20,112 bases of DNA from a virus. The position numbers were made by a program, and so were the translations under genes. The notes below the pieces were generated by a model. That model saw nothing but the letters and a program-made list of their open reading frames with translations. It ran no database searches and was not told where the DNA came from. Shown here in pieces: positions 437-11,174 of the stretch (the first letter of the stretch is position 1; each line of letters begins with the position of its first letter). Where the stretch lies: the IMG/VR virus record IMGVR_UViG_3300017735_000144, positions 1-20,112 of that record. One strand, written 5' to 3'.

Positions 437-458
437 GCTCCGCTTAGGCGGGGCTTTT
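437..458 (+). terminator. Intrinsic terminator ending the upstream operon
   Basis: A GC-rich 7-bp stem (GCTCCGC at 437-443 pairing with GCGGGGC at 448-454, one G-U pair) with a 4-base loop is followed directly by TTTT and, after GTCG, another TTTT. It lies 25 bases after the last upstream gene, so it should end transcription of the preceding operon and isolate it from the late genes. Confidence 0.8.
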
Positions 459-570: not shown

Positions 571-644
571 CAAGTTTTTCTTTTGTTTACTCACGTTTTG
601 TTACAGTTTTGCACGTTTTTGTAACATTTGTCACATTTTTGTTG
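571..644. repeat. Iteron-like array of ~20-bp T-rich direct repeats
   Basis: Three clear units start at 592 (CACGTTTTGTTACA), 612 (CACGTTTTTGTAACA) and 632 (CACATTTTTGTT), exactly 20 bp apart. A more diverged unit begins at 571 (CAAGTTTTTC). An inverted copy, TGTTACAAAACGG, lies at 811-823. The 20-bp period is close to two helical turns, so a protein bound to each unit would sit on one face of the DNA. This is typical of iterons in replication origins and also of multi-site regulator arrays. Function is inference. Confidence 0.6.
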
Positions 645-868
645 GGGCCCCTTGACATTACGGGCGAATCACTTTCGGCGGCCCGTTAACACCACATGAA
701 TCCAAAACCAAAAATTACTTTTGCCCTACCCACCACGTTCAAACGGACGTTATATCTGGAGTACCCACCAAGGTATATATCGGCGGAAATCCGCTTACGT
801 CATCACGAACTGTTACAAAACGGTAATATTACTCACGAAAACACGACAAAAAACAGAAAATACTTTCG

Positions 869-898: not shown

Positions 899-925
899 CA
901 AAAAGTAAAAATAAAGTGAATAATA
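895..925 (+). promoter_or_regulatory. Candidate sigma-70-like promoter for the late operon
   Basis: A perfect -35 box TTGACA (895-900) is followed after 19 bases by AATAAT (920-925), five of six matches to TATAAT, inside an AT-rich tract. The spacer is longer than the usual 17, so the call is tentative. If real, transcription would start near 932, about 280 bases before terS, and all four 12-bp palindromes would lie in the transcribed leader. Confidence 0.35.
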
Positions 926-961
926 TTCTGAAATATATCCCTATAGTAATATGAGAGAGAG

Positions 962-1163
962 AGTAACTTAAGTTTTAACGTAAATTATTACCACTACGAT
1001 ATATACTACTAGACTATATAACGTAAGTCATAACTATAGTTACTCCCCTCAAGAATCACTCCTACAAGTTAAACCAAGAAGTATGTTCTCACAGATATAA
1101 CTTAAGTTACAAAGTTCTTGCCGATTAACTGTAGGTAGTGATATCGACTACCCACTTAAGTTA
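962..1163. repeat. Four-copy 12-bp palindrome cluster (TAACTTAAGTTA type)
   Basis: Two copies are perfect 12-bp palindromes: TAACTATAGTTA at 1031-1042 and TAACTTAAGTTA at 1098-1109. Two are near-copies: TAACTTAAGTTT at 962-973 (11 of 12) and CCACTTAAGTTA at 1152-1163 (10 of 12). Centres are 69, 67 and 54 bases apart. Such a cluster suggests binding of a dimeric protein such as a late regulator or the small terminase subunit. The last copy ends 45 bases before the terS start. Confidence 0.6.
1134..1152. repeat. Inverted repeat GGTAGT-(7)-ACTACC
   Basis: GGTAGT (1134-1139) and ACTACC (1147-1152) are exact reverse complements around a 7-base loop, directly abutting the last 12-bp palindrome copy. 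It may be a hairpin in the terS leader or a further protein site. Confidence 0.35.
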
Positions 1164-1208: not shown

Positions 1209-1637
1209 ATGATCGCAGCATTACCCTACAGTAAGTTAGTAGAGAAGCACATCTTGGACTGTATCCAAGGTGGCATTGGTATTCGTCAAATGATTGCCTC
1301 AATGCAACACCTACAGGATGCCCCAAAGTCTTTATCCACTATGTACAAAATCTATGGGTCGTTCATTGAGATGGAACGAGCGAAGATCAATGGTGCTGTC
1401 GGTAAGAGGGTCATAGACCAAGCACTAGATGGTGACTTTAAATCACAAGAATTGTTCCTACGATCTAAGGGTGGCTGGAGTCCAACTCAGACTAACATTG
1501 AAGTTGAGCAAGAGACTGACCCTGACCTAGACGAAAGTGCTGTTGACACACTTATGTCGTTACTTGGATACAACGAAAATGCCCCCGAAGAAGAAACAAC
1601 CTGTACCTGTGAGGAAGATAACTGCCGATGCTCTTAG
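1209..1637 (+). CDS. terS: Terminase small subunit
   Basis: This 142-residue protein should recognise the packaging site on concatemeric phage DNA and hand it to the large subunit. I chose ATG 1209, which has GGAG at 1196-1199 nine bases upstream; an in-frame TTG at 1173 lacks such a site. The N-terminal 60 residues are helical and basic enough for a DNA-binding helix-turn-helix. The central part (STMYKIYG, GDFKSQELFLRSKGGWSPT) is the conserved core seen in small terminases of related phages, from my knowledge of the family. The C terminus is acidic and ends in a cysteine-rich tail with two CxC motifs. Its last 59 bases overlap the large-subunit gene in another frame. Confidence 0.82.
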   Translation: MIAALPYSKLVEKHILDCIQGGIGIRQMIASMQHLQDAPKSLSTMYKIYGSFIEMERAKINGAVGKRVIDQALDGDFKSQELFLRSKGGWSPTQTNIEVEQETDPDLDESAVDTLMSLLGYNENAPEEETTCTCEEDNCRCS

Positions 1638-2985
1638 AGGATTACCTCAGAGTAAAGTTAAGGACATCTTCGAGCAACTAGGGCCACAGAAGACCGAAGA
1701 ACTCAAGCATGACTGGATGTTCTGGGCTAGAGATAACCAACTGGAGCCTATCAATGACGATTGGAACACTTGGTTCATTAACGCTGGTCGTGGATTTGGT
1801 AAAACTAGGTCAGGCGTTGAGTGGGTTAGAGATAATGTTAAGCGTGGTGTTAAGCGTATAGCTGCTGTAGCTTCCACTAACTCAGATATTGAACGAGTTA
1901 TGGTCAAGGGTGAATCTGGTTTCCTATCGGTATGCTGGAAGGGTGACAGAACCTACGCAGGTAAGAAGATGGGGTTCCCTGAGTGGTCTCCAACTAAACG
2001 TACACTAACATGGGAGAATGGAGCGCAAGTACAGTTCTTCTCCGCTGAGGAACCTGAGCGTCTCCGTGGCCCACAGTTTGAGTTAGCATGGTGTGATGAG
2101 ACTGCTGCTTGGAACAAGGACATGGACACTTGGCAGATGCTACAGTTTTGTATGCGTCTGGGTAAACACCCAAGGATCATGGTTACGACCACCCCTAAGC
2201 CAACCAAACTTATTCGTCAGATACTCAAAGACCCTAAGACTGTAGTTACCACTGGTAGTACCTTTGATAACTCAGCTAACCTAGCTAACACATACCTCAC
2301 TGCTGTTAAAGAGCAGTACGAAGGAACTAGACTAGGTAGACAAGAGCTTTATGAAGAAGTCCTAGAAGAAGCTCAAGGAGCCTTGTGGACTACAGCTATG
2401 CTAGATGACGCCTCAGTTAAGCATGAGGTAGTCCCAGACCTTTCCCGTATTGTCGTTGCACTTGATCCCGCTGTTACCTCTAACGCTGAGAGTGACATGA
2501 CGGGTATTGTTGTCGCAGGTATTGACATTAACGGTATTGCCTATGTCCTCGGAGATTATACTGATAGGCTATCACCACAGGGTTGGGCATCTAAAGCTAT
2601 TCAACTGTATCACCAATACCAAGCTGACCGTATTGTAGCGGAAGTTAACCAAGGTGGTGATATGGTTAAACAGACGATCCACGGAGAAGACCCTACAGTA
2701 CCCTATAAGGCTGTTAGAGCATCTCATGGTAAGTTCGCTAGGGCTGAACTTTTATCGGCATTGTACGAGCGTGGTTTAGTAAAGCATGTGGCTAATCCCC
2801 CTGATGGGGCTTCGCTAAACGAACTAGAGACACAAATGAGAACATGGGAACCACTAGGGTCGATTGGCTCCCCAGATAGACTTGATGCCTGTGTATGGGC
2901 AATTACAGACCTCTCACTCAACGGATATGCGAAACCCAAACTGACCCTCGCTTACTCAAGTGCCAAGGGACTTTCACAGAAATAA
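1579..2985 (+). CDS. terL: Terminase large subunit (ATPase and nuclease)
   Basis: This 468-residue packaging motor pumps DNA through the portal and cuts it. The N-terminal ATPase has a Walker A motif (AGRGFGKT, residues 69-76), a Walker B (ELAWCDE, D173 and E174) and a coupling motif (VTTTPKP, about 202-208). The C-terminal RNase H-like nuclease shows its acidic triad in ALDPAVT (D296), VAEVNQGG (E355) and DRLDACVWA (D433/D436). It resembles the GTA-type, Terminase_6 or COG5323 DNA-packaging proteins, and the length is normal. ATG 1579 lacks a good ribosome-binding site, but its long overlap with terS suggests coupled translation. An upstream in-frame GTG at 1537 is less likely. Confidence 0.95.
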   Translation: MPPKKKQPVPVRKITADALRGLPQSKVKDIFEQLGPQKTEELKHDWMFWARDNQLEPINDDWNTWFINAGRGFGKTRSGVEWVRDNVKRGVKRIAAVASTNSDIERVMVKGESGFLSVCWKGDRTYAGKKMGFPEWSPTKRTLTWENGAQVQFFSAEEPERLRGPQFELAWCDETAAWNKDMDTWQMLQFCMRLGKHPRIMVTTTPKPTKLIRQILKDPKTVVTTGSTFDNSANLANTYLTAVKEQYEGTRLGRQELYEEVLEEAQGALWTTAMLDDASVKHEVVPDLSRIVVALDPAVTSNAESDMTGIVVAGIDINGIAYVLGDYTDRLSPQGWASKAIQLYHQYQADRIVAEVNQGGDMVKQTIHGEDPTVPYKAVRASHGKFARAELLSALYERGLVKHVANPPDGASLNELETQMRTWEPLGSIGSPDRLDACVWAITDLSLNGYAKPKLTLAYSSAKGLSQK

Positions 2986-10749: not shown

Positions 10750-11174
10750 TGAGTATTCAAGCAACAATGAATGCCTTTAAGGATAAGATAGAAAACAGAG
10801 TAGCTGGTGAAGTTGAACAAAAGTTTGATGAGATAGCTTCCTACGCAGTTTATGTTGCTGTCCCTGACCAATCTATCGACACAGGTGCTTATGTAACTTC
10901 ATTTTCCATTGGTAAAGCAGGTTTTGGTGGCGGTAGGAGCAAAAGTTCAGACAACAGGCCCAAGAACCAGAACCCACAAGCCATGAAAGACCAAGCCTAC
11001 TCTCAGCTTATCGGTGACATAGATCGTATAGACTTTAAGACAACTCTAGAGTCTGGTGATGCAAGGTTCACTCTTCGTAACCGATCCCCTCACGCTAGAG
11101 ATGTTGAGGATGGTACTAACTGGAGACGCTCGGGATACCATGTCTTCGCAAAGATTAGGAACCAGTTCGGATGA
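10749..11174 (+). CDS. Neck / tail-completion protein (HK97 gp10-like)
   Basis: This 141-residue protein begins with an N-terminal helix (KDKIENRVAGEVEQKFDEI) followed by VPDQSIDTGAYVTSFSI and, near the C terminus, RNRSPHARDVEDGTNW. That last element matches the NxxPYAxxVExG signature of HK97 gp10-type neck proteins. It probably takes part in joining head and tail. Both neighbours overlap it by a few bases, so translation is likely coupled through the block 10393-11593. Confidence 0.68.
   Translation: MSIQATMNAFKDKIENRVAGEVEQKFDEIASYAVYVAVPDQSIDTGAYVTSFSIGKAGFGGGRSKSSDNRPKNQNPQAMKDQAYSQLIGDIDRIDFKTTLESGDARFTLRNRSPHARDVEDGTNWRRSGYHVFAKIRNQFG

Follow-up and report, generated by a model that had tools for sequence, protein, structure and literature searches.

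The repeats at positions 571-644 of the viral DNA studied here raise the question whether a short-period array in front of packaging genes serves replication, packaging or transcription. The DNA is a linear IMG/VR virus record of 20,112 bp that was analysed as a whole (the window); it carries no stated completeness and is probably a fragment. The first-pass annotation had listed a replication origin, a binding site for an initiator or for the terminase, and a multi-site regulator as possible functions. In a comparison with 50,697 phage records, the sole close DNA relative of the window was Roseobacter phage CRP-6 (MK613348), whose host is Roseobacter RCA FZCC0042 and with which it shares the order of modules and a terminase large subunit (TerL) of 64% identity. 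TerL is encoded at 1540-2985 (+ strand; PHROG 979, E 9e-43) and is followed by portal, head protease-like, major head and tape-measure proteins. The gene in the TerS position (1209-1637, + strand) encodes a product of 142 aa that gave no match in a PHROGs search up to E 0.1. Between this gene and two small genes that end at about 411 lies a control region of about 700 bp, which contains the array. Its left border is formed by a terminator-like hairpin with a T run, recognized by eye at 437-458 (+ strand), 3' of the two small genes. A scan of the window against Rfam at gathering scores detected no family. Relatives were collected through TerL, which led to 80 loci kept of 358 found, and through a leader pattern described below. 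Four long relatives were available for inspection of gene context: CRP-6 (44.9 kb), G001 (46.1 kb), G002 (36.1 kb) and G003 (32.5 kb).

The repeat strings that had been reported are present exactly, with CACGTTTTGTTACA at 592, CACGTTTTTGTAACA at 612, CACATTTTTGTT at 632 and TGTTACAAAACGG at 811-823. The series had been extended by a diverged unit at 571, but this lies 21 and not 20 bp 5' of 592. Taken as a single sequence the periodicity is modest and mildly unusual. The best 40-nt self-match within 462-1170 is found at lag 20 (25/40 positions); when lags 8-40 were examined in 500 dinucleotide shuffles, 11 attained this level; in local shuffles lag 20 was reached by 3/1000, lag 10 (23/40) by 23/1000 and any lag by 21/500. 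Column conservation was scored over 22 distinct sequences of close relatives. In these, 15 of the 19 columns of unit 1 (591-609) are invariant, as are nine of ten at 619-628 (TGTAACATT). The CACG part of the reported second unit (611-618, + strand) is altered in relatives, with two of eight columns invariant, and the reported third unit, TGTCACATTTTT (629-640, strand not assigned), keeps five of 12 and slides by 1 bp. Relatives place unit 3 at 20 from unit 2, or at 21 where 1 bp is inserted; the 20-bp spacing is exact in the strings of the window but its register has not been kept by evolution. Counted from start to start, all 22 close relatives have the same step of 29 nt between TCACG of unit 1 and TGTAACA. 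The heptamers TGTTACA and TGTAACA are mutually inverted and stand 14 nt apart in the window. Since unit 1, and with it the element called U1 below, is near-invariant together with TGTAACA while units 2 and 3 drift, the array does not consist of three equal iterons. The strongly conserved part is U1 plus the inverted TGTAACA only, instead of three or more direct repeats at constant spacing. It is conservation in relatives that shows the repeats to be real, and it also redefines their unit.

The underlying unit, here called U, was deduced from divergent relatives and is the 16-bp sequence ATCACGAATTGTTACA; on the opposite strand it reads as a 10-bp direct repeat, GTAAC-N5-GTGAT. On the basis of conservation the main candidate operator unit of the window is U1, at about 590-606 on the + strand (CTCACGTTTTGTTACA / TCACGTTTTGTTACAG). 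At the U1 position two relatives, L102 and L124, carry exact U. The inverted heptamer TGTAACA occupies 620-626 on the - strand, where it reads TGTTACA, 14 nt past the TGTTACA of U1. A direct copy with one mismatch to U, ATCACGAACTGTTACA, is found at 802-817 (+ strand) and is called U2; its counterpart at 10805 in G003 is an exact U. The sequence at 811-823 had been described as an inverted copy, and 594-608 and 808-822 do match in inverted orientation at 93%. This match arises because TGTTACA is nearly palindromic, and the relatives show the string to be a piece of the direct copy at 802-817.

U1 is flanked by two conserved arms. The left arm, GCGAATCACATGCGGGGAGTGGGCGAATCGCCTATCCTCTGTCAAG (529-575, strand not assigned), has 30 of 47 columns invariant in the 22 relatives and contains two GANTC sites, at 531 and 553, as well as a TTGACA that faces outward on the - strand. 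The right arm or promoter region D, GGGGCCCC (644-670, + strand), contains TTGACA at 652-657 and GANTC at 666-670, and 16 of 20 columns at 651-670 are invariant in the same set. Further downstream, 29 of 37 columns at 689-725 are invariant around the conserved leader block TGAATCCAAAACCAAAAATTACTTTTGC (697-724, + strand), the pattern of which matched 61 viral stretches and provided the second collection of relatives. The block is covered by an ORF of 70 aa (696-908), which also includes U2 and the reality of which is doubtful: its frame is kept by a 12-bp insertion in L015/L035, CTG stands in place of its ATG in several relatives, and in the divergent L037 the frame seems, by eye, to stop early. 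In L044, L045 and L074 small genes lie just 5' of D, between the arms in L044 and L074 (by eye). The promoters of these small genes in L045 and L044 read TTGAC(A/C)-N6-GAATC-N6-TAT(AAA/TGT), with a GANTC within the spacer (by eye). A leftward promoter from U1 (TTGACA-17-AGGATA), noted by eye, was rejected on account of a -10 that is too variable.

U is a rare sequence in these genomes. At up to three mismatches there is one site in CRP-6, two in G001, three in G002, four in G003 and three in the window. In the four long relatives (32-46 kb) every match with at most two mismatches falls in a control region, either the terS leader, the promoter of the primase operon beside a phage sigma gene, or the early divergent region. 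This specific sequence recurs at control regions and is rare elsewhere in these genomes. In all four long relatives U is found at another location, about 7 kb from the terS leader, where the sigma gene of the phage has its 3' end and the primase-containing operon follows downstream. There U overlaps the stop codon of the sigma gene in G001, G002 and G003; in CRP-6 it lies just 5' of the stop and has one mismatch. This small gene matches Sigma70_r4 (2.6e-11 in G003, 2.8e-12 in G001) and PHROG 351 and 1740, both described as 'RNA polymerase sigma factor'; CRP-6 gp14 matches PHROG 1740 at 1.3e-7, yet stays below the Pfam cut-off. After removal of duplicates from 95 matches, 62 distinct D regions were available, and 39 of these have U at up to four mismatches in the 250 bp upstream. 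The other 23 lack U at that threshold and distance, L019 and L121 being cut by contig ends. In the terS leader of CRP-6 no U was found at up to three mismatches, its sole U being the one at the primase promoter, and the two arms are almost joined. A regulatory role of U at terS would therefore be confined to part of the group.

The position of U relative to promoter elements is restricted. In divergent relatives D has the form TTGACA-~17-TATAC..GATTC. Among these, 19 distinct contexts have U at no more than one mismatch and 18 of them also have the TTGAC box. In these 18 the distance from U to TTGAC is 15 nt in 12, 16 in one, 26 in three, 35 in one and 37 in one, giving a mean resultant of 0.967 at 10.5 bp. 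Read from these spacings, the shifts correspond to roughly one and two turns of the helix. A TA[TC][AG][ACT] box follows 15-21 nt past TTGAC in 11 of the 18 contexts, at 17 nt in eight. At promoters of the primase type the -10 (TATAAG and variants) lies 24-25 nt past the GTGA of U in 24 of 32 pattern matches, with the primase gene checked in part of these 24 contexts. In one further relative (L238) the distance from U to the -10 is 34-35 nt, one turn more, and we take the remaining seven as other kinds of site. The contexts share ancestry, and the counts are not independent trials, although the cases at 26, 35 and 37 nt and that of L238 seem to have shifted separately. With a spacing to the -35 or -10 that is fixed or changes by helical turns, the geometry is that of a transcription-factor operator. 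The orientation of U is opposite between D and the primase promoters.

In the window the distance from U1 to TTGACA (652) is 46 nt, or 15 + 31, which is about three turns and in phase with the spacing of 15. A GcrA/CcrM-controlled promoter would contain a GANTC, and the one at 666 lies 8 nt past the TTGACA of D. The promoter is weak in the clade of the window, where no convincing -10 box was found at D, and D may therefore not be the target of U1 in this clade. A second heptamer follows exact U at an offset of 3 in 14, of 4 in four and of 13-14 in five of 123 distinct viral contexts; in the window the offset is 14. These offsets suggest that the full site is a pair of halves which can be placed one turn further apart.

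A probable late promoter of the phage-sigma type, GAATAATATTCTGAAATATATCCC-TATAGT, was recognized at 918-947 (+ strand) through its covariation with the primase-operon promoter. Over ten distinct pairs, the late and primase-operon promoters of one genome are identical at 22.0 of 30 positions on average, against 16.7 of 30 for pairs from different genomes. In 10,000 permutations the score of the own pairs was never reached, in a test that ignores phylogeny. The excess resides in the -35 (0.80 for own and 0.56 for other pairs) and in the extended -10 (0.86 and 0.62); values for the middle of the spacer differ little (0.40 and 0.35). L102 and L113 run contrary to this trend, their own pair not being the best match. 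A -35 and -10 that are lineage-specific and common to two promoters of one genome are expected of a phage sigma factor, and the simplest reading is that this factor would read both the primase-operon and the late promoters. As far as the available parts of the reports on phiEco32 and Salmonella phage 7-11 indicate, these phages encode their own sigma factor (PMC8948821, PMC4331800), and late genes would be under a phage sigma here too. The phage group and the motif differ from what those parts describe, and in the group of the window, unlike in phiEco32 and 7-11 as described there, a putative operator of 16 bp is found both abutting the primase promoter of phage-sigma type and in the terS leader.

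Other elements of the late leader were noted. A stem ACC[AAGAA]...[TTCTT]GCCGAT at 1073-1125 (+ strand) is a possible structured RNA in front of terS. The terS leaders of relatives contain the pattern ACC[NNNNN]G[AT]A[CT]...[NNNNN]GC[CT]GA, with paired variants AAGAC/GTCTT, AAAAC/GTTTT, AAGAA/TTCTT, ATGAC/GTCAT and AAGAT/ATCTT among 27 listed elements that were preselected for at least four of five pairs. The repeats GTAACTTAAGT/ACTTAAGTTAC occur at 963, 1100 and 1154, and ACTTAAGT recurs in the leaders of relatives.

The exact 16-mer of U is present in at least 120 viral stretches. Among the matches listed there are 118 U loci, of which 54 have a protein of the family and 64 do not; L180, one of the 54, is counted through an out-of-frame terS query alone, its U context being that of the clade of the window, and of the 64 many may match by chance or within coding sequence. 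U stands directly before a TTGAC(A/T) or TAGACA box in L143, L149, L166, L167, L169, L173, L217 and L221. In an unrelated phage group (L163, L216, L237, L243) it precedes TTGACA-16/17-TATAAT by 21-22 nt. No binder of U was identified among the 12 proteins and the sigma factor that were scanned of the 69 annotated in CRP-6. The only other possible regulator in this set is gp05, a small WYL_2 protein (28.6 bits, cut-off 26.7). Proteins common to the U loci of different phage groups comprise structural and metabolic ones and a terminase cluster, with no clear regulator among them; one small early protein is common to the family and one locus of another group (L163).

A host regulon motif was considered and rejected. 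Of 394 genomes in the family to which the Loktanella genome belongs, four contain the exact 15-mer, against one match of the control; the exact 17-mer occurs in 58 bacterial stretches, many of them redundant. Ten of these stretches are Bartonella with one shared context, and six are Actinomarina/OCS155, also with one shared context that is apparently coding; by our own estimate the others are near chance with a mild alphaproteobacterial excess. ChvI and BvrR were rejected as binders since their motifs, as given in the available parts of the publications, differ from U. The 15- and 16-mers of U had no match in the literature texts that were searched, and among the matches listed for promoters or sigma factors of CRP-6 and roseophages nothing concerned the U motif. 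In the main text of the CRP-6 paper (PMC6918029) the words sigma and promoter are absent. Tentatively, and with rather more doubt than confidence, U could be a widely shared phage operator that occurs in several unrelated groups, alone or as a dyad of about 35 bp, upstream of replication or late promoters and recognized by one conserved regulator. Many of these groups are marine and probably infect Alphaproteobacteria. The regulator would then either come from the host, with hardly any sites in its chromosome, or be a small protein of phage origin that has been exchanged among the groups.

Further repeats and methylation sites were seen in these genomes. In most of the records GANTC (CcrM) sites are thinly spread but crowd upstream of terS, with dense blocks at 1-1600 of the window, 3-7 kb of G001, 13-17 kb of G002, 6-11 kb of G003 and 42.4-44.9 kb of CRP-6, where 38 of 69 sites fall in the last 2.5 kb. 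Sites that fit TGTTTCACGTGAAACA, the bacterial parS consensus, are present in L105 (2692), L116 (6057), L123 (428) and L131 (3491); those in L105 and L123 lie just upstream of D, beside TGTTACA elements. Separate arrays of the TTTCCAC/TTTCCATCGG type occur in the region of the GC-skew minimum (CRP-6 44,3xx-44,927, G001 ~3.3 kb, G002 ~16.8 kb, G003 ~7.9 kb), and the divergent early region of CRP-6 has many copies of GTGACATT(C/T)(C/T)TGC-AAC. These early-region arrays are another candidate for an origin.

In view of the above, the functions that could explain the array have to be weighed against each other. Iteron origins of plasmids and P1-like phages have short repeats at near-helical spacing with methylation sites nearby, and the window resembles them in these respects. 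If a phage initiator bound the repeats, the GANTC sites, which cluster at and upstream of the array, would place initiation under methylation control. The direct and inverted repeats, the phased T tracts and the non-coding location would fit, as would the U upstream of the primase operon. The GC skew gives a mixed picture. Its minimum is broad and lies upstream of D by about 2.4 kb in CRP-6, about 1-3 kb in G002 and 0.6-2.6 kb in G003, while the minimum about 3 kb upstream in G001 applies only if the contig ends are taken as joined. In G003 and G002 it approaches D to 0.6-1.1 kb; in CRP-6 it coincides with the divergent early region, where separate repeats occur, and the skew may follow transcription. 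No initiator family was detected in the 13 of 69 CRP-6 proteins scanned, only two elements are conserved, and U is shared with a second promoter and is in phase with promoters, which sets the locus apart from iteron origins. The origin or initiator function put forward initially has gained no positive support, and we regard it as unlikely. A cos or pac signal bound by TerS or terminase would account for conserved non-coding DNA directly upstream of terL and the gene in the terS position. However, U is also found about 7 kb away at the primase operon, the terS leader of CRP-6 does without it, and in L044 and L074 a small gene appears, by eye, to lie between the arms. The terminase site that had been suggested has no positive evidence in its favour, and a packaging signal is rather improbable.

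A special case of an operator would be a site for a host response regulator of the OmpR family, such as CenR. The direct repeat GTAAC-N5-GTGAT of U is reminiscent of the half-site repeats of this family, and U abuts a TTGAC(A/T) or TAGACA box in several unrelated phages and in an Aurantimonas match (L298). According to the available part of a study of CenR of Rhodobacter sphaeroides, its sites lie directly upstream of the -35 in 28 of 31 cases and have the motif TGA-N8-TGA with an 11-bp step (PMC9275681). The step of U is 10 bp, its orientation is reversed at D and a matching host regulon is missing. Upstream of tolQ/rpoH at 59 host loci, with start codons chosen crudely and two upstream regions cut short, the CenR-like N7 form was found at six and the 10-bp variant at one, and the best match to the 15-mer of U had three mismatches. 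Within the Loktanella family the exact 15-mer is limited to the four genomes mentioned above. CenR itself was rejected on spacing, as far as its motif is described in that part of the study, and a host regulator of this family is unlikely, marginally more so than an origin. The T tracts, which by eye recur roughly each 10 bp over 575-640, could act as curved DNA or as an UP element that needs no specific protein. The best-conserved part, though, consists of the heptamers TTACAG and TGTAACA, and a U in which GAATTG replaces the T tract is kept exactly elsewhere, which makes this very improbable. Chance repeats in T-rich DNA would be compatible with a single-sequence significance of about 2-4%, but conservation, the second locus and the phasing contradict this, and it hardly deserves credence.

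What remains is the multi-site regulator, the one function on the initial list that is supported: U recurs at a second promoter, that of the primase operon, its position is in helical phase with the -35 or at a constant distance from the -10, and it is found beside promoters of unrelated phages. As far as comparison between related genomes can establish it, U is a conserved, rare element that is phased with promoters. We consider it probable that 571-644 is a transcription-factor operator between the upstream gene block and the packaging and late operon of a relative of the CRP-6-type marine roseophages. The array is most likely a docking site for a gene-switch protein that is also used at the promoter of replication genes and in unrelated phages. 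The operator would comprise U1, the inverted TGTAACA (620-626) and weaker half-sites, with U2 as a second copy. A dimeric regulator could bind U1 and the inverted heptamer on the face of the helix that is used by RNA polymerase. Activation is likelier than repression because U lies upstream of the promoter. The same regulator would control promoter D and the primase-operon promoter together and could thereby link the replication and packaging modules, after which the sigma factor of the phage would drive the late genes from 918-947.

The "iteron" reading that a single sequence invites changes once relatives are compared. As a kind of element U is an ordinary operator; its exact sharing among unrelated phages would be unusual. 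Because U is conserved exactly across divergent and unrelated phages, its binder is a concrete target for a pulldown. For the CRP-6 type, an abundant and little-studied group of marine phages, the analysis gives a first regulatory map, which consists of an operator that would be common to the replication and packaging modules and a pair of probable phage-sigma promoters that covary by lineage.
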